Source: Microcaldota archaeon
GTDB lineage: Archaea > Micrarchaeota > Micrarchaeia > Norongarragalinales > Norongarragalinaceae
DNA: 12,136 bases
Assembly: GCA_016214445.1 (NCBI GenBank)
Contig: JACROM010000122.1
Span: forward strand, 1 to 12,136
Reading direction: 5' to 3'
Numbering within the stretch: position 1 is the first letter of the stretch; each line of letters begins with the position of its first letter. The notes below the pieces were generated by a model. That model made no database searches. It was not told the DNA's origin and worked only from the letters and a program-made list of their open reading frames with translations. The position numbers and the translations under genes are program-made. This document shows positions 877 through 8,272 of this stretch, piece by piece.

Positions 877-1530
877 ATGATTTTCTCCCACGTACGCAGG
901 GACTTCGACGCTATAAGCGTGTTCGACCCAGCTTCCAAGAACAAGCTTGAAGACGCCCTTTGCTCACCTGGTTTCCACGCTGTTACCGTCCACCGGTTTT
1001 CGCACCGCCTCCATGTTTGGGGCGTTCCGCTGTTGCCAAGGCTGGTTTCCCAATTGATGCGTTTCATTACGGGCGCGGAAATTCATCCGGGCGCGAAAAT
1101 CAAGGGCGGCCTGTTCATAGACCATGCCATGGGTGTGGTGATAGGCGAAACAACCGAAATCGGCGAAAATGTCCTGCTCTATCAAGGCGTTACACTTGGA
1201 GGAACAGGCAAGCACAAAGGAAAACGCCACCCCACCATAGGCAACAACGTCGTTGTGGGCGTTGGCGCCAGCATTTTGGGCCCCATAACAATCGGCGACA
1301 ACGTGCGGGTCGGCGCCGGCTCGGTGGTCGTGAAGGACGTCCCGCCTGACTCGACTGTTGTCGGCGTGCCAGGTGAAATAATCCGTCACAAGGGCGTGCG
1401 CGTGCAAGGCACAAAGCTCGAGCACGGCGAGCTGCCTGACCCGCTCTTCGAAATGATACGCTCACTACGGAAGAGGGTGGACGATCTGGAAAAAGAGTTG
1501 CGGAAGAAAAAGGCAGCTACGCGTTCTTGA
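877..1530 (+). CDS. cysE: Serine O-acetyltransferase
   Basis: This enzyme moves an acetyl group from acetyl-CoA to L-serine to give O-acetylserine, the precursor for cysteine made by a sulfhydrylase (none is visible here). The 217-residue protein has a helical N-terminal part (residues about 1-65). A left-handed beta-helix of hexapeptide repeats follows (about 68-170), with DHAMGVVIGE (His near 83) and GKHKGKRHPTIG (His near 118), the two segments that form the active site in the family, and then GSVVVKDVPPDSTVVGVPG. The C-terminus is a charged helix (about 190-217) that could be a coiled coil. Start: GTG 874 and ATG 877 are adjacent in frame; I prefer ATG, 28 bp after the TATA-like box. The 3' end overlaps the convergent gene by 14 bp. 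cysS lies 655 bp downstream, so two cysteine-related genes are close together. Confidence 0.93.
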   Translation: MIFSHVRRDFDAISVFDPASKNKLEDALCSPGFHAVTVHRFSHRLHVWGVPLLPRLVSQLMRFITGAEIHPGAKIKGGLFIDHAMGVVIGETTEIGENVLLYQGVTLGGTGKHKGKRHPTIGNNVVVGVGASILGPITIGDNVRVGAGSVVVKDVPPDSTVVGVPGEIIRHKGVRVQGTKLEHGELPDPLFEMIRSLRKRVDDLEKELRKKKAATRS

Positions 1531-1889
1531 AAATTTCGTACGTTTTCAGCCTCTCCATTATGTTGCTAAAGTTGGCGTCGTAAGCTTCGTGAAACCGGTC
1601 GGCTTGCTCTACTTTCAAGTGGTCATAGATTTCAGCCATTACGCCCTCAGCTGCGTCATCAACCGCGTGTGCCCCCCGCAGCCCGGCCTTCTTGTTTTCA
1701 GAAACACTTTCGGCGAACCTTCTCGCTATTTCCCTGAGAGCTTTCTTGGCGCCTGTTTTTTTCACGCGCGCGTGCTCGAGCGCCTTCTCCGTTGCAAGTG
1801 CGCTGCTTGCCATTATCGCCTCGTGAATAGATATTTCCGGCCGTTTTTCCCTTACCCATTCTGTTGCTTTCTTTGGGTCCGAATGCCCG

Positions 1890-1975
1890 CTTATAGCTGA
1901 TTGCAAAAATAATCGTACTTTGGCTGCCTCGTAAAAGGAGCCTTAAAAAGTACAGATATTTTCGTTATTCGCTAT
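1890..1975 (+). repeat. 86-bp perfect inverted repeat, left arm
   Basis: Positions 1890-1975 are the exact reverse complement of 5256-5341. The identity breaks at 1889/5342 and 1976/5255. The arm consists of the MITE-like element, the 3-bp duplications and a few shared target bases (CT on the left side). The arms enclose about 3.3 kb with cysS, the toxin-antitoxin pair and the hydrolase-like gene. Confidence 0.95.
1895..1972 (+). mobile_element. MITE-like element, copy 1
   Basis: This 78-bp element has imperfect terminal inverted repeats of about 26 bp (1896-1921 and 1947-1972, about 18 of 26 positions matching when one is reverse-complemented). The repeats start GC and end GTACTTT. A 25-bp centre contains GGCT and AGCC that could extend the fold, so the whole element could form one hairpin. 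It is flanked by TAT at 1892-1894 and 1973-1975, an apparent 3-bp target duplication (TA is also possible). It carries no ORF of note and has stops in all frames, so it would need a transposase supplied elsewhere. Copy 2 is identical and inverted. The parent IS family is not determined; TA-rich targets would suit IS630-like elements among others. Confidence 0.82.
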
Positions 1976-2153
1976 TAGTCCCATGGCGATTTTTCTTTCC
2001 AGCGTTGCCGTCATATCCCTGGTGAGCTTCATTATCTCTCCGTCAGTTGCGTACGCTATCCCCGCTTTGTCCCTTCGGAAAAGGCTTCCGGCCCTTCCAG
2101 CCAATCTTCTCAACCACTCCATGTAATCACAAACAGTTCATTCGCGCCAAGAA

Positions 2154-2163
2154 CTTAAAATAC
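2154..2163 (+). promoter_or_regulatory. TATA-like box for cysS
   Basis: The sequence CTTAAAATAC, centred near 2158, lies 28 bp before the cysS ATG, which suggests a leaderless transcript. The same A/T run is about 35 bp before the start of the divergent split gene (2122) and could serve it too, though that is less certain. Confidence 0.55.
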
Positions 2164-2185
2164 TTCCGTACCTAAAGTGTAGCGT

Positions 2186-3727
2186 ATGTTTAGGATATTC
2201 AACACGCTCACCAGGAAGAAGGAGGCGTTCAAGCCCATTGAGAAAGGCAGCGTGCGCGTCTACAACTGCGGGCCCACTGCCTATAATGACCCGCACATCG
2301 GCAACTACCGCGCTTATTGTTTCGCCGACCTTTTGAGGCGGTTCCTCGAGTGGGAAGGCTGCTCAGTTAAACAAATAATGAACATCACCGACGTTGATGA
2401 CAAGACCATAAGGGACTCGCAGAAGCAGAAGAAGAATTTGACTGATTTCACGAGGCATTACGAAAAGGTCTTCTTTGACGACCTGAAATCGCTGAACATC
2501 CTGCCGGCTACCAAGTACCCGCGGGCAACCGAACACATAGCAGAAATGGTTTCGCTGGTTCAAAAACTGCTGACCGAAGGGAAAGCGTACAAGAGCGAAG
2601 ACGGCTCGGTATATTACGCGATTTCCAAGTTCAAGGACTACGGCAAGCTTTCTGGCTTGAAAATGAAGGAGTTGAAGGAAGGCGCGTCAGGAAGGGTGAA
2701 CAAGGACGAGTACGAGAAGGAAAACGCAGATGATTTCGTGCTTTGGAAAGCCTACTCAGAAGAAGACGGCGGCGTGTTCTGGGAAACTCCTCTGGGCAAA
2801 GGCAGACCCGGCTGGCACATAGAGTGCAGCGCCATGAGCTCCAAGTATTTGGGGGAAAGCTTTGACGTGCACACCGGCGGAGTTGATTTGATTTTCCCGC
2901 ACCACGAGAACGAAATCGCGCAAAGCGAAGGCGCTTCAGGCAAGAAGTTCGTGAACTACTGGCTGCACAACGAGCACCTGCTTGTTGACGGCCGCAAGAT
3001 GAGCAAGTCATTGGGAAACTTCCACACTTTGCGGGATGTTTTGGCGAAAGGCTTCAAGCCGCTCGCTGTCCGTTACGTCCTTCTCGCAACGCACTACCGC
3101 ACCCAGCTCAACTTCACTTTCGATTCCATAACCGCAGCGGAGAACACGCTCGCGAGCATGCAGGATTTCCTGCAGCGGCTGGAGGAAATGGAAATGGAAA
3201 AGGACAAAGGCAAGAAAAAGCAGGAAAAAAAGGAAACCAACAAAAACAACCCGCCCGCTGAAAACGCCGACCTTGAGGAAAAGCTCGAGGAAACGAAAAA
3301 ACAATTCACAACAGCCTTGGAGGACGACTTGAACGTTGCAGATGCGCTGGCGTCGGTGTTCGGGCTGGAGCACTCCACGAACAAGGCAATTGAACGCGGA
3401 GAGGTTTCAAAGAAGCTCGCCAAGAAAATCGCTTCCTTCTACTGGAATGACTTCAACGCGGTTTTCGGCGTGTTGGAGAAGAAAAAAACATTAACGGAAA
3501 AGGTAAAACTGTCGGATTTGCTTGAAATAAAACACGCGCGTCCGGCAGAATTTGAAATGACCTACGATGCGGCAACACCTAAAGAAATAATCGGTTTAGC
3601 CAAAGAACGCGAAGAGGCGAGGAAAGCCAAGGACTTCAAGCGCGCTGACGTGTTGAGAGAAGAAATCAAGGTGAAAGGCTTCATTCTTGAGGACTCGAAG
3701 AAGGGAGTCCGTGTTAAGAAGGCCTGA
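2186..3727 (+). CDS. cysS: Cysteinyl-tRNA synthetase
   Basis: This class I aminoacyl-tRNA synthetase charges tRNA-Cys with cysteine in the cytoplasm. The 513-residue protein shows [20 protein letters not shown] with the HIGH-type motif HIGN at 37-40, and KMSKS at 271-275. The zinc site is complete by comparison with the E. coli ligand pattern: Cys28, Cys214, His239 and Glu243 (in [11 protein letters not shown] and [13 protein letters not shown]). The C-terminal helical domain follows from about residue 315. Unusually, residues about 332-372 are a strongly charged, low-complexity stretch rich in Lys and Glu ([16 protein letters not shown] and onward), longer than I would expect at this point. 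The start is ATG, 28 bp after a TATA-like box. The archaeal alternative (SepRS/SepCysS) is not implied, since direct charging is present. Confidence 0.96.
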
Positions 3728-3874
3728 CTTTTGGAGGGCTTGATAAAAGGCGTTATAGTGAAGGGGGTTTAGGCGCCGCTTCCTTCCGGGTATCCGCCCT
3801 GCGTGGCGGTTCTGGCGCGCCGATTCATGGTGCGAGCAAACAATTAAAAGTAAGAATTATCCTACTATTAGTGG
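3728..3874 (+). other. Intergenic region with GC-rich nested stems
   Basis: Between cysS and the antitoxin gene, two nested 5-bp stems can be drawn: GCGCC 3773-3777 with GGCGC 3814-3818, and CCGCC 3794-3798 with GGCGG 3805-3809 around a 6-nt loop. I could not fit a tRNA or a box C/D or H/ACA RNA. It may be a small structured RNA, a decayed repeat or chance. A/T-rich runs at 3842-3849 and 3853-3860 are candidates for the toxin-antitoxin promoter. Confidence 0.3.
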
Positions 3875-3883
3875 TTGATACGT

Positions 3884-4147
3884 ATGAATCTTACCACTGT
3901 TACCTTGAGTGACAAAGGCCAAATCAGCATTCCCGTTGACCTGCGGAGAGCTTTGGGCTTGAAAAAGGGCGAAAAGCTCGTCCTGATAGAGGAAAAAGGC
4001 AGGATTATCCTCGAAACAGCGAGCAAAGTGGTCAGGAAGCTGGCCATGCTGCAGCACGGCGAATCCTTCGCCACCATGATGGCATCTGAAAAAACCCTCG
4101 GCAAGGAGTGGGACAGTGAAGAAGATGAACGATGGAACGCGCTTTGA
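3884..4147 (+). CDS. AbrB/MazE-type antitoxin
   Basis: This is a small DNA-binding antitoxin of 87 residues that by family neutralises the MazF-like toxin encoded next and represses their shared promoter. The N-terminal half is a swapped-hairpin AbrB/SpoVT domain: TVTLSDKGQISIPVDLRRAL then GLKKGEKLVLIEEKGRIIL (residues about 4-45), with the standard DKGQ-IPxxLR pattern. The C-terminal half, ending in the acidic DSEEDERW, fits the flexible toxin-binding tail of MazE proteins. The start is taken at ATG 3884; an in-frame TTG at 3875 would add three residues and is also possible. Its end overlaps the toxin start, which implies translational coupling. Confidence 0.9.
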   Translation: MNLTTVTLSDKGQISIPVDLRRALGLKKGEKLVLIEEKGRIILETASKVVRKLAMLQHGESFATMMASEKTLGKEWDSEEDERWNAL

Positions 4148-4484
4148 CCAATGGCAAATTGTCTTGGTGCCTTTTCCTTTCACCGACTTAAGCGGCGCAA
4201 AAAAGAGGCCGGCTTTGGTTGTCTCAAACGCAGGTTTCAACCGCGGGCACGACGACCTGATTTGCTGTCTTATGACAAGTAAAATCGTGCCGGAGACCGG
4301 CTGCCCCATTGTTGCGGCAGGCGACCTTCTGGAAGGCACACTGCCCTTTGAAACCAAAATCAAGCCTTACCGCCTGTTCACCATCGAAAAGACGCTGGTA
4401 ATAAAGCAGCTCGGCCAACTCCGCCCCAATAAAGCGGAAGAAACAAGAAAAGAATTTGTCGGGCTTTTCCAATCATCCGACTAG
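4125..4484 (+). CDS. MazF/PemK-type endoribonuclease toxin
   Basis: This 119-residue toxin is expected to cut mRNA at specific short sequences when freed from its antitoxin. Family signs are QIVLVPFPFTDLSGAKKRPAL at residues 11-31 (the FPF-D-S-KKRPALV core, with Arg28 in the usual catalytic-Arg place) and CLMTSKIV, which supplies the conserved Thr/Ser. The C-terminal IKPYRLFTIEKTLV and LGQL are also typical. Start: ATG 4125 overlaps the antitoxin stop by 23 bp; GTG 4116 is a possible alternative start giving 122 residues. No residue essential to the family appears lost, so it looks intact. Its stop (4482-4484) interlocks with the stop of the convergent minus-strand gene (4481-4483) within CTAG. 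Confidence 0.91.
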   Translation: MNDGTRFDQWQIVLVPFPFTDLSGAKKRPALVVSNAGFNRGHDDLICCLMTSKIVPETGCPIVAAGDLLEGTLPFETKIKPYRLFTIEKTLVIKQLGQLRPNKAEETRKEFVGLFQSSD

Positions 4485-5133
4485 GCCCGGCCTAACTTTT
4501 TCGCATCCAGTTCGATAAGGTGCTTGTGAATAGATTTCGCTATTAACATAGAAATTATAGGGCTCTTGTACTTCTCCTGTTCGGGTATGTTTAAACGTGT
4601 GTGCTTCAGTTGGTAATCCACCAGCAAGTCCCTCCAAACCGTGAAAACGTCCGTATATCTTATTCTATCGATTTTTTTCCCGTATTTTTTAACTACTGCT
4701 TCCGGGAGCGGAACGTATGCTGCCGGCACCTCAACAACATACTCAGGCAAGTAACCGCTTACCGTTATTTCTGCGTTTTGTTCAACAATTGGCGAGCCAA
4801 TCTGCTCCATGAGCCTAAACTGTTCAGGCGTCCGCGACTTCGCCTCGCCCATCATTGTATATGGAGTTGAATGAAAATCAACAACCATCGCGCGGTGTTT
4901 CTGTCTCAGTGAATTCATTCTTTTCTCTCTTTTTTCACATAATCCTCTTAACTTTTCCCCCGCCTCTTTTACGCTATATTTTCTAACTATCCCATAACTC
5001 GTTTCGTCAGGGTGGACTTTTTCAACTATCACTTCGTGGCCCACCCTTCCAGGATTTTCTTTACCTCGCGCATGTGGTGTGCGGCGACGTGCTCGGTCGG
5101 GTGCTCGTTCCACAGGAAGACTACTTTTGCCAT
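4481..5133 (-). pseudogene. Possible compact M14/AstE-like zinc hydrolase, frameshifted
   Basis: Translation from ATG at 5131-5133 gives MAKVVFLWNEHPTEHVAAHH and on to VKKILEG, then leaves frame and stops. The downstream frame continues GHEVIVEKVHPDETSYG to the C-terminus. The span is 653 bp, one base short of a multiple of three. Restoring one G in the GGG run at 5044-5046 joins the halves as ILEGVGHEVIVEK and gives 217 residues. Possible zinc-hydrolase signs are HPTE (His11, Glu14: HxxE), VVDFHSTP (His88) and YVVEVPAAY (Glu135). This order matches the two-plus-one zinc ligands and catalytic Glu of the aspartoacylase/succinylglutamate desuccinylase branch of M14, but the protein is shorter, so this is a proposal only. 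It starts 4 bp after the HTH gene stop, as in an operon. A sequencing error is as possible as a true mutation. Confidence 0.6.
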
Positions 5134-5255
5134 GCGATCATTTTGCTCTATCTATTTTCCTGAACGCTCTTTGGAGGTCGTTGTCAACGCTTTTAACATG
5201 CAAGTTTTTTTCTCGAGCAATCTGCTGATAGGTATTGCCTGCAAGAAACAGTCTT

Positions 5256-5341
5256 ATAGCGAATAACGAAAATATCTGTACTTTTTAAGGCTCCTTTTAC
5301 GAGGCAGCCAAAGTACGATTATTTTTGCAATCAGCTATAAG
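5256..5341 (-). repeat. 86-bp perfect inverted repeat, right arm
   Basis: This is the exact reverse complement of 1890-1975. Because both host genes are continuous across their own copy, the present order is the ancestral one. The arms could still recombine and invert the 3.3 kb between them. Confidence 0.95.
5259..5336 (-). mobile_element. MITE-like element, copy 2 (inverted)
   Basis: This is an identical 78-bp copy of the element at 1895-1972, in opposite orientation. Terminal inverted repeats lie at 5259-5284 and 5310-5335. It is flanked by ATA at 5256-5258 and 5337-5339 (TATA at 5255-5258 and 5336-5339), the apparent target duplication. It sits inside the codon run for VLI-RLF of the HTH gene. 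In the sense of the host gene it is reversed relative to copy 1, which argues against an RNA intron. Confidence 0.82.
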
Positions 5342-5638
5342 AACTGTCTCTTCGCGCTTGCTCAAGCCAGCGTTGGTTATATGCTCTTCCTTTACCGTGC
5401 CTCTGCGGAAGGTGTAGGCCTCAGGTCTCTTCGGAGACGGTGCATTGCAACTTAACTCTGCTCTTATTCTCCCAAGCCCATGCCCGCGGAGTGCATTAAT
5501 CAGCTCTTTTTCCACGCCTTTTTCTCTAAGTTCCCTTATGCTAGGTAAAACGCCGTCTATTATATGTTGTCTGGCGGCTTCAACGGCTGCTTTGAAGTTG
5601 GCAAATTTTCCATACATCGTTTGTCTTTCCATTTCGAT

Positions 5639-8272
5639 CTAACCCTTCTTCCCCCTCGCGAACTTCGGCGAGCCGCCGCCTTTCGCGCCAGCGCCCTTTA
5701 GGAGGTCAACTGCGTTCTGCTTGCTCTTTTCCGTTGTGGCCGCGACTATGGCGCCTTCCTTGTTCCACAAGACGCAATCCAATGTTTTGGCTATGGTGCT
5801 AGCAAGTATTTCTAACCCTTTCGCGTCGAACGGGACCTCGTGGGCTATGGTGGTTTTCTTCATCTTCAGAGCTTCGCCTACAAGTTTTTGGGCGTAAGCC
5901 TCGGCAGCGTTTCCTTGGAGTTTCTCCAAGTCCTTCTTGGCCTGCTTCCATTCCTCGAATATTCTCTTGACGCTTTGCGGCAGCTGCTCCTTGGATACGC
6001 TGAGTATCCCGCACGCTTCGTTCAAAATGTCCTCGTCTTTCTGTATCTGTTCGATGGCCTTGGGCCCAGCTTTGTATCTCAACCTTATCACTCCGTCCTG
6101 TATGTTTTCCACACCTGTAATCTTGATAAACCCGACTTCGCTTGTGTTGCCGACGTGCAAACCGCCGCAAGCCTCCACGTCCCAGTCCTTCACTTCCAAT
6201 ACCCTAAGGCGTTTGCCTATGGCGCAGCCTCCTTGGTACAACCGAAAACCGTACTCTTTCTCGGCTTCGCCGCGGTCGAGGTCCTTGAGGTAAACCGGCC
6301 GCGCCTCGCGCACTACCTCGTTCGCTGTTTTTTCCATTTCCTTTATCTGTTCGCGTGAGGGCTTCTCGAAGTGGGTGACGTCCACGTGCGCTTCGTCCGG
6401 TGTTTTGCTGGAGCCGTGCTGCCAAACGTGGTTGCCCAGCACTTTCCTGGCTGTAGCGATCATTATGTGAGTTGCGGTGTGGTGGCGTGAAATGCTTTCG
6501 CGCGCTGCCCAGTCGAGCTGCATCAAAACTTCACTGCCTTTCCTGAACTCGGATACGTCTTCCATGTAATGCAGGACAACTTCGCCCTGCTTCTGCACGT
6601 CGCTCACAGGCACGTTCTCTATCATTCCCAGGTCGGCGTGCTGGCCGCCTCCTTCGGGATAGAAGATCGTCCGGTCAAACACGAGTATTTTGAGCGCCGG
6701 CTCGACGTGAAGCACTTTCGCCTTGGCGTGTTTCGTGCCCTGCTCCAAGTAGTATAGTTGCTCAGTTGGCTCCAATGGCGGGAGGTCTATTGTCTTTTTC
6801 GCCTTTTTTTCGCCCGGCTCGCTTTTTTCCATGACGTGCCCTTCTGTGAGGCGCTGGTAGAACTCGGTCGGAACCTCCTTTACACCTACCCTTTCCAGAA
6901 GTTCAGGTGTCACGCCGTGGCTTTCGTACAGTGTAACCATTTTTTCGAGCGTGACTGGCTCTTTTTTCAGCAGCACCTCGCGGGCCAGTGAAGTGGCTTT
7001 TTTCACGGACTGCTCGTGCTTCCGGCGTTCTGCAGCGACAACCGCGTTCACGTTGTCTATATTTTCCCTCAATTCAGGAAATATCCCCTTCAGGTCGTCG
7101 GCGTGTATGGAAATGATCTGTTCGAGCTCGAAGTCGAAGTCGTACTCCTTCAGGAAAGCGAAAGCGCGCCTCAACAACACCCTCAGGTTGTAGCCTCCTG
7201 AAACATTGGAGGGCAGCGCTCCGTCCGCCAACGCGAACAATATGGCGCGGGAATGGTCGGCTATTGCGTACATGGCCTGCATGGGTGCTATGGTTTTTTC
7301 CATCTCCTCCAAACTAAGGTTCATCATTTCGGCTATCTTCATTTTCTCCTGCTTCATGTTCACTACGCTATCAACGTCCAGGCTAGCTGAAAGAGCGGCA
7401 TAACGCTCCATCAGTTCCGCGTCCTCGCTGAATCCGCTCTTGCGCCTCATTAGCGCCAGAGGTTTCGGGAAAACCGCATCGTACGCGGTCGAGGTTCCGT
7501 TGTAGAACCACAGAAGGCGCTCAAAACCCCAGCCCACGTCTATCACTTTCATGTCCAGTTCCTCGAAGCCCTGGCCTGCTGCCCTGTATTGCATGAACAC
7601 GCTGTTCACCAGCTCAAGGCCGCGCGAGAACGACTCCATGGAAGGCCCGAAGGCGGAGAAGTCCGGCATGTTCCACACATCTTCGCCGTAGACGAGCTCG
7701 CTTTTAGGCACTTTGAGCACTTTAGTGAGGAAGTCGAAGTTGTACTGCAGGCACTCGTCCTTCCAATAACCTTCCTTGGGGTGGTTGAAGGAGTGCTGGC
7801 CTGCCATCATGAAACAGGAAAAGTGTCTTCCCGTGATTCCTATGTTTGCCAAGTCGGGAAAGCGCAGGCACATCTGCGGGACCATGAGCGGGTTGGCCGG
7901 GTACTCGAAAACGACCTTGCCCTGCTCCAAGCGTTGGAAGTCCACTATGCTTGCTATGGTGAACGGCAGGTCTTCGCGCCACCTGCTCAGCACCGGGTAT
8001 CTTGGTATGACCTCGTGGCCGTTGTCCTGCCAGAATTCCGCGAACTTCTTCCAGAAGGAAGAGTACGTTTCCTCCCGCTTTTCCTTCCTGAAGAAGGAGT
8101 AGGGCTCGTGAACTGAATCGCCGCACGTGTCGCGTGGGGTAGCAGACCAGAAGCCTTTGCCGCATTCCTTGCAGGTGTGCCGCTCAAAGCCTTCGTTCTC
8201 GAACAACGGGACCTTGTAGTAGGTGTTGTAGTCGTTGGCGAAAGTCTGCTTGAGCTTCTTCTTCGAGAGCAT
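5639..8272 (-). CDS. alaS: Alanyl-tRNA synthetase, archaeal type
   Basis: This class II synthetase charges tRNA-Ala and hydrolyses Ser-tRNA-Ala and Gly-tRNA-Ala. The 877 residues start with the archaeal N-terminal extension and zinc finger: CKECGKGFW (Cys34, Cys37) and CGDSVHEPYSFF (Cys50, with His55 where Cys is usual). The catalytic domain follows, with IASIVDFQRLEQG, GITGRHFSCF and a G-ER motif in VGWGFERLLWFYNG. The editing domain carries HHTATHIMIA (HxxxH) and CGGLHVGNTSEVG (Cys and His of the zinc site). The C-terminal domain is short and ends in a glycine motif, KGGGSPKFARG. Length fits the archaeal family. The ATG at 8270-8272 lies about 29 bp from a TATA-like box shared with the divergent AMP phosphorylase gene. 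No frame damage is seen, in contrast to the two genes behind it. Confidence 0.97.
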   Translation of the reverse strand: MLSKKKLKQTFANDYNTYYKVPLFENEGFERHTCKECGKGFWSATPRDTCGDSVHEPYSFFRKEKREETYSSFWKKFAEFWQDNGHEVIPRYPVLSRWREDLPFTIASIVDFQRLEQGKVVFEYPANPLMVPQMCLRFPDLANIGITGRHFSCFMMAGQHSFNHPKEGYWKDECLQYNFDFLTKVLKVPKSELVYGEDVWNMPDFSAFGPSMESFSRGLELVNSVFMQYRAAGQGFEELDMKVIDVGWGFERLLWFYNGTSTAYDAVFPKPLALMRRKSGFSEDAELMERYAALSASLDVDSVVNMKQEKMKIAEMMNLSLEEMEKTIAPMQAMYAIADHSRAILFALADGALPSNVSGGYNLRVLLRRAFAFLKEYDFDFELEQIISIHADDLKGIFPELRENIDNVNAVVAAERRKHEQSVKKATSLAREVLLKKEPVTLEKMVTLYESHGVTPELLERVGVKEVPTEFYQRLTEGHVMEKSEPGEKKAKKTIDLPPLEPTEQLYYLEQGTKHAKAKVLHVEPALKILVFDRTIFYPEGGGQHADLGMIENVPVSDVQKQGEVVLHYMEDVSEFRKGSEVLMQLDWAARESISRHHTATHIMIATARKVLGNHVWQHGSSKTPDEAHVDVTHFEKPSREQIKEMEKTANEVVREARPVYLKDLDRGEAEKEYGFRLYQGGCAIGKRLRVLEVKDWDVEACGGLHVGNTSEVGFIKITGVENIQDGVIRLRYKAGPKAIEQIQKDEDILNEACGILSVSKEQLPQSVKRIFEEWKQAKKDLEKLQGNAAEAYAQKLVGEALKMKKTTIAHEVPFDAKGLEILASTIAKTLDCVLWNKEGAIVAATTEKSKQNAVDLLKGAGAKGGGSPKFARGKKG

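Follow-up and report, generated by a model that had tools for sequence, protein, structure and literature searches.

Miniature inverted-repeat transposable elements (MITEs) are already well known from archaea. Those of Sulfolobus, the SM and SMN elements, have long been described and depend on the transposase of an autonomous element (PMC3718332, PMC10969869), and the count of archaeal MITEs given in PMC3852290 stands at 44, so that small nonautonomous elements in archaea are less rarely described than an earlier note on the DNA treated here had supposed. That DNA, hereafter the window, is a stretch of 12,136 nucleotides from contig JACROM010000122.1 of a Microcaldota archaeon (assembly GCA_016214445.1), and it holds two identical, inverted repeats. 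Our conclusion, to which we assign a probability of about 0.9, is that these repeats are two copies of a nonautonomous DNA transposon, a MITE, that is an internally deleted derivative of an insertion sequence (IS) of the IS630 type. What is new is the MITE family and, perhaps, a 3-bp duplication of TNA at its targets where IS630 elements give TA. This would mean that a MITE has recently spread through the small genome of an archaeon, interrupting genes as it did so, and that its likely parent can be named.

Several described elements invite comparison. The 107-bp RUP element of pneumococcus was assigned to IS630-Spn1 from its ends and its TA targets (PMC2229807). RUP and Correia/NEMIS, as described, resemble the present element in being shorter than 200 bp and A+T rich, in lacking a transposase, and in having terminal inverted repeats and TA at their ends. 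Correia ends read TATAG. The present element differs from both in its archaeal host, in flanks that seemingly duplicate TNA, and in carrying stops in all frames while at least 8 of its 12 full copies nevertheless lie inside open frames. The Sulfolobus elements SM1 to SM4, SM3A, and SMN1 are likewise described as archaeal MITEs reliant on an autonomous element's transposase, but they differ in host, in being larger, and in parents, which are ISC1058 for SM3A (164 bp) and ISC1733 for SMN1 (320 bp). ISY100, a well-studied prokaryotic relative in the IS630/Tc1/mariner group that differs from the present element in its normal TA duplication, moves by cut and paste into TA; among 39 in vitro products sequenced, 34 had a normal TA duplication, 2 had AA/TT duplications, and 3 had TA at one side and only A at the other (PMC2170065). 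In the open-licence literature we found no report of miniature inverted repeats in DPANN archaea (the combination of Micrarchaeota and MITE was not searched as such), nothing on topic for insertion sequences together with transposases of Micrarchaeota, and nothing relevant for IS630 elements with a TNA duplication.

The 81-bp element and its copies

Window positions 1890 to 1975 and 5256 to 5341 are exact reverse complements (86/86 bases), as the earlier note had observed. A repeat finder (seed 12) lengthens this inverted pair to 89 bp at 99% and returns no other inverted repeat of 20 nt or more in the window. Over the aligned copies the constant part is ATAGC…GCTAT, 83 bp, and the register fixed from the copies with their flanks gives an element of 81 bp, TAGC…GCTA, instead of the 78 bp first proposed (Table 1). 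The element contains no transposase gene and has stop codons in 6/6 frames, in agreement with the absence of an open reading frame noted before, and its G+C content is 35%, versus 51% for the window. Its ends are inverted repeats of each other: left and right ends agree at a p of 0.002 in the main family and 0.012 in a sister subfamily, where end comparisons here and below are gapped, take in the outermost 36 bases, of which the first five are kept constant, and are tested against 3000 shuffles. The element also folds better than shuffled sequences do (z of −5.5 as RNA and −2.4 as DNA).

The genome to which the window belongs is represented by 1,293,712 bases in 140 contigs and is 71.8% complete. 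A 106-bp probe gave 15 matches in it, of which 12 are full-length copies, 1 is truncated (C66, unusable for flanks), and 2 are short (C136 and C83). Ten of the full copies, copy 1 counted, show no difference from copy 1, one shows a single difference, and one shows 12. Together with the terminal inverted repeats and the duplication at the flanks, these copies bear out the MITE-like interpretation offered earlier. Patterns for the individual ends found the left end at 14 places with no mismatch and at 4 with two to three mismatches, and the right end at 13 places; a reversed control pattern found none in this genome. Locus L030, with two mismatches, was counted as the sister subfamily's other copy, and L031, L032, and L033, with three mismatches each, were left out of the copy count. 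The sister subfamily (C83 and C71) has its left end in common with the main family and a middle unlike it, and its two copies differ at 2 of 82 positions.

Two of the loci left out of the count have features of their own. In L032 (C27:2174), a tiny palindrome at about 1470 to 1521 has ATAGC/GCTAT as its ends but another middle; it may be a relative of the element that is smaller still. At L033 (C96:22025), positions 1500 to 1660 hold an ATAGC-type end followed by a repeated unit with GTCTGCAATGGCCTCAAAGTGGGCACGGTCTCAAAAG near the contig end.

The element was also found in two related genomes of Ca. Micrarchaeota, G013 (87%) and G017 (contig C2, 83%), both assigned to the order of the window's genome, which makes 3 of 60 relatives and 3 of 301 genomes of the phylum, the own genome counted in each case. 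A match in G064 was dropped as chance, being 21 bases only and without ATAG or a second end. A 21-letter pattern hit seven loci among genome contigs: three (L099, L100, and L102) are the element or a sister element in Micrarchaeota, and four (L097, L098, L101, and L103) were set aside as chance, the second end being absent within the 160 bases inspected. Plasmid and phage records gave no match to the element, and viral contigs gave none to the 21-letter pattern. One locus in G017 (L084/L099, C12:5196) represents a third subfamily of 91 bp, which has the same first 12 bases; its palindromic CTG…CAG flanks fit neither TNA nor TA. At another (L081/L100, C2, near 33870), a MITE of the family directly abuts a further element with ATAGC/GCTAT ends, an arrangement which suggests that one element inserted at the border of the other.

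Interrupted genes and restored frames

Empty sites were made in silico by removing the element with one duplicate, and frames were compared across removal sizes. Both window frames are open across the site once 84 bp are left out, so the placement of each copy inside a gene, already proposed from the letters, holds. For the gene interrupted by copy 1, the restored frame has a DUF3535 match that is below the cutoff and distant from the junction, and the only ortholog among 296 genomes is the gene itself, in two pieces. The protein restored at copy 2 matches GerE (6.1e-7, residues 92 to 134) and Sigma70_r4_2 (8.4e-7, residues 91 to 134), both above their cutoffs, with the junction at residue 100; the piece of the gene up to the element, taken alone, matches neither family. 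Among the same 296 genomes this gene has a single weak match (G086, 7e-4).

A sister-subfamily copy, L015, interrupts a gene of recognizable function. Removal of 83 bp, that is, the 82-bp ATAGC…GCTAT plus one base, restores a frame of 245 amino acids, while removal of 81, 82, or 84 bp leaves 151, 162, or 130 amino acids. The 245-residue product matches Asp_Glu_race over the whole Pfam profile (2.2e-41) and the racemase of PDB entry 3ojc (4.4e-65), residues 6 to 234 aligning with 2 to 230 without a gap. An empty site with a single target is thus seen for the L015 racemase, by homology and not in a sister strain; for the two window sites, only the helix-turn-helix (HTH) match at copy 2 bears on the point.

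Other loci behave similarly: a LAGLIDADG_3 domain spans the junction at L003 (5.3e-7), an HTH_17 match slightly under its cutoff spans that at L005, and the predicted removal class is the one with the longest frame at 6 of 8 loci. By our reading, at least 8 of the 12 full main-family copies lie inside genes (L001, L002, L003, L004, L005, L007, L008, and L010); L006, L009, L011, and L013 could not be placed within one.

The parent transposase

The earlier note considered the parent transposase unknown. The ends of elements in relatives, together with a fragment in the same genome, indicate that the parent is very probably of the IS630 type. On contig C136, positions 6176 to 6211 carry an end of the element's right-end type, TAGCGAATAAC, followed by a frame matching HTH_23 (3.2e-8). 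This end matches the right end of the MITE at an E value of 6e-4 in the search of the own genome and was equaled by 0 of 3000 shuffles; the piece compared began one base early, a shift that the free end gap absorbs. A second fragment of this type of frame, N-terminal like the first, stands at the start of contig C124 and ends early, and the contig breaks at both fragments may be the effect of a repeated element.

Transposase-bearing elements with similar ends exist in relatives; with the further copies in the own and in related genomes, two of the three checks proposed in the earlier note thus came out as predicted. The transposase half from G011 has relatives in 11 of the 301 phylum genomes (own genome counted) at 1e-12, with one match per genome, and elements of about 1.1 kb with readable ends were obtained from G011, G061, G077, G090, G158, G167, G173, G186, and G251. 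Inverted ends were found by script at seven of these nine loci; G011 was read by eye, G061 was read separately, and G192 was left out. The IS right-end pattern occurs at 7 places in 6 of the 301 genomes, and the places without a readable left end (G158:C6, G270, and both in G218) stand outside the count of nine. These elements, of which G158 and G251 are the more distant, have variable ends that read roughly ATAGC…ATAAATATTTGAACATTT and, unlike the MITE, are autonomous in form. Their frames (G090, G186, and the DDE half of G158) match HTH_33, HTH_32, HTH_29, HTH_23, and DDE_3, and the NCBIfam IS630 family NF033545 covers both halves for G090, G158, and G186, with 87 to 90 bits for first halves (100.1 for G011) and 101 to 106 bits for second halves, against a cutoff of 100 that is for the whole protein. 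The left end of the sister MITE matches the IS right ends of G186 and G011 better than any shuffle (0 of 3000 each), and that of the main family matches them at a p of 0.004 and 0.013, respectively.

Because of the end matches to C136 and to the relatives, the MITE is best read as the left and right ends of an IS whose inside has been deleted. On its minus strand, the 81-bp element would consist of the IS left end (TAGCGAATAAC…ACTTTTTAA) fused to the right end (…CAATCAGCTA). An IS630-type transposase acting in trans would excise the element and place it at new sites resembling YTNAR, and TNA would remain at both sides once the staggered ends had been repaired. An insertion adds 84 bp and brings a stop into all frames, which truncates the interrupted gene. 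Such cut-and-paste movement would have been recent, and the mobilizing copy has presumably been lost or lies in an unassembled part of the genome.

In the IS630 relatives the coding region is split into an HTH frame and a DDE frame that overlap, and in 7/7 loci a T followed by seven to eight A lies at the overlap (Table 1). With families tested for three of the loci, this looks like a programmed −1 frameshift site.

Target site and duplication

The flanks of the copies read TNA, element, TNA, where the variable N precedes ATAGC on one side and follows GCTAT on the other. The ATA/TAT duplication first suggested straddles the element ends; what appears to be duplicated is TNA, exactly at copy 1 (TTA/TTA) and with one mismatch at copy 2 (TTA/TAA). 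Among the 12 main copies, six have the N pair T/T, four have A/A, and one has G/G; the remaining one, window copy 2, has T/A. In the sister subfamily (C83 and C71) the pairs are T/T and C/C. Of the 14 own copies (12 from the main family and 2 from the sister subfamily), 13 therefore have the same N on either side, a result reached with shuffled right-hand bases at a p of 2.5e-5. All own copies have T before the left N and A after the right N, except for the left side of the C71 copy. In relatives, N is A/A in G013, T/T in G017 (contig C2), and G/C in the third subfamily of G017 (contig C12), which brings the equal cases to 15 of 17; the element abutting the C2 copy itself reads T/A. The simple reading, an 81-bp TAGC…GCTA element with target YTNAR and duplication TNA, is the likelier description of the MITE.

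The strongest competitor keeps the same MITE but gives it the ordinary IS630 duplication of TA, with an excised element that ends in TAGC or ATAGC and so slides by one base. With sliding, flanks of T/T, A/A, T/A, and A/T can each be taken as TA on both sides of the element, which accommodates 12 of the 14 own copies and every one of the nine IS630 relatives read at both ends (T/A in G011, G077, G158, and G251; A/T in G090 and G186; T/T in G173 and G167; A/A in G061). Only three of these nine relatives have equal N and fit TNA. A normal TA duplication also fits what ISY100 did in vitro (34/39; PMC2170065). But the TGA/TGA copy on C44, which carries an identical element, and the C/C copy on C71, which is otherwise degenerate at the left, cannot be read as TA, and free sliding should produce unequal pairs (T/A and A/T) at about the frequency of equal ones (T/T and A/A), yet 13 of 14 pairs are equal. 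Because these two copies are impossible under TA and N is equal far above chance, the MITE copies favor TNA, and we regard sliding TA ends as a possible but less probable account.

A broader proposal is that a Micrarchaeota branch of the IS630/Tc1/mariner group gave up the TA target and its 2-bp stagger in favor of YTNAR targets at which 3 bp, TNA, are duplicated, a change that its MITEs would record; we give this an even chance. Should the transposase itself prove to duplicate TNA, it would depart from the TA rule of IS630/Tc1/mariner and offer a naturally occurring variant in which to study how the stagger is determined.

Two other origins of the flanks were rejected. Had the element entered between T and A together with carried bases and without any duplication, 84 bp would have to be removed at L015, but that removal yields 130 amino acids in place of 245. 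Inversion of the segment between the copies, as a source of the T/A flank of copy 2, conflicts with both interrupted frames rejoining in the present order, and it is rejected also because it would leave one mismatch anyway.

A number of observations tell against a TNA-duplicating MITE of IS630 origin. Window copy 2 departs from the TNA rule, as does one of the three copies in relatives (G017, contig C12, G/C), and the usual duplication of IS630 elements is TA, not TNA. The C136 fragment has an in-frame stop and reaches the contig end, and the C124 fragment is cut short. A DDE_3 search of the own assembly (72% complete) came back empty, with no complete parent beside the MITE; as a control, the same search was applied to 14 known genomes and detected DDE_3 in 3 of them, in 2 with a score above the cutoff. 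The main left end resembles known IS right ends modestly (the 0.004 and 0.013 given above), and the MITE left end does not match the left end on C136 (p = 0.46), a mismatch that is expected if the MITE left corresponds to the right end of the IS, a part missing from this assembly. Among the restored frames, a removal class other than 84 bp gave the longer one at L003 (198 versus 142) and L004 (567 versus 551), so these two loci are unproven by frame length alone, and the frames restored at L008 and L010 match no Pfam family.

Judged from the element's ends and from searches for IS630-type domains, an origin in the IS5 group (IS1031 type) or another TNA family, with a convergent likeness to IS630 ends, is improbable. 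Members of the IS1031 subgroup of IS5 as a rule duplicate a 3-bp TNA, which is near the TWA of PIF/Harbinger, and no complete IS630 parent is assembled in the own genome; on C136, however, an end of the element's type is joined to an HTH resembling that of IS630, and the resemblance to IS630 ends extends past the first five bases, the part kept constant in the shuffles. Least probable of all, and hardly to be entertained, is that the element is precisely removed again at the RNA or DNA level, as an intron or internal eliminated sequence would be, leaving the interrupted genes functional: the split frames are otherwise open, as in the 245-residue racemase, and the element forms a strong RNA hairpin, but copies so nearly identical speak for recent insertion, and that accounts for the open frames with no need for excision, and an Rfam scan of the window found no family reaching its gathering score.

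Coordinates of the element copies and flanks, the interrupted frames, and the overlaps in IS630 relatives are collected in Table 1.

Table 1. Features discussed in the text (window positions, except where a locus is named)
Feature	Position	Strand	Remarks
MITE copy 1, TAGCTGATTGC…TTATTCGCTA, 81 bp	1894..1974	+	Identical over 83 bp ATAGC…GCTAT in 10/12 full own copies, copy 1 counted
MITE copy 2, 81 bp	5257..5337	-	Opposite orientation, identical to copy 1
Copy 1 left target-site duplicate, TTA	1891..1893		
Copy 1 right target-site duplicate, TTA	1975..1977		
Copy 2 target-site duplicate, TTA on + strand	5254..5256		
Copy 2 other target-site duplicate, TAA on + strand	5338..5340		Sole unequal-N case among 14 own copies
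Frame interrupted by copy 1	1517..2122	-	173 amino acids from ATG with 84 bp left out; no convincing family
Frame interrupted by copy 2	5138..5632	-	C-terminal LuxR/sigma-70 region 4 type HTH across junction
A-run overlap, L087	2001-2065		
A-run overlap, L088	1990-2076		
A-run overlap, L089	1995-2050		
A-run overlap, L090	1998-2050		
A-run overlap, L091	1995-2047		
A-run overlap, L092	1995-2047		
A-run overlap, L093	1986-2075		

Between the two inverted MITEs, window positions 2186 to 4484 hold a cysteinyl-tRNA synthetase gene (tRNA-synt_1e, 6e-113) and a MazE-like/PemK-like pair.

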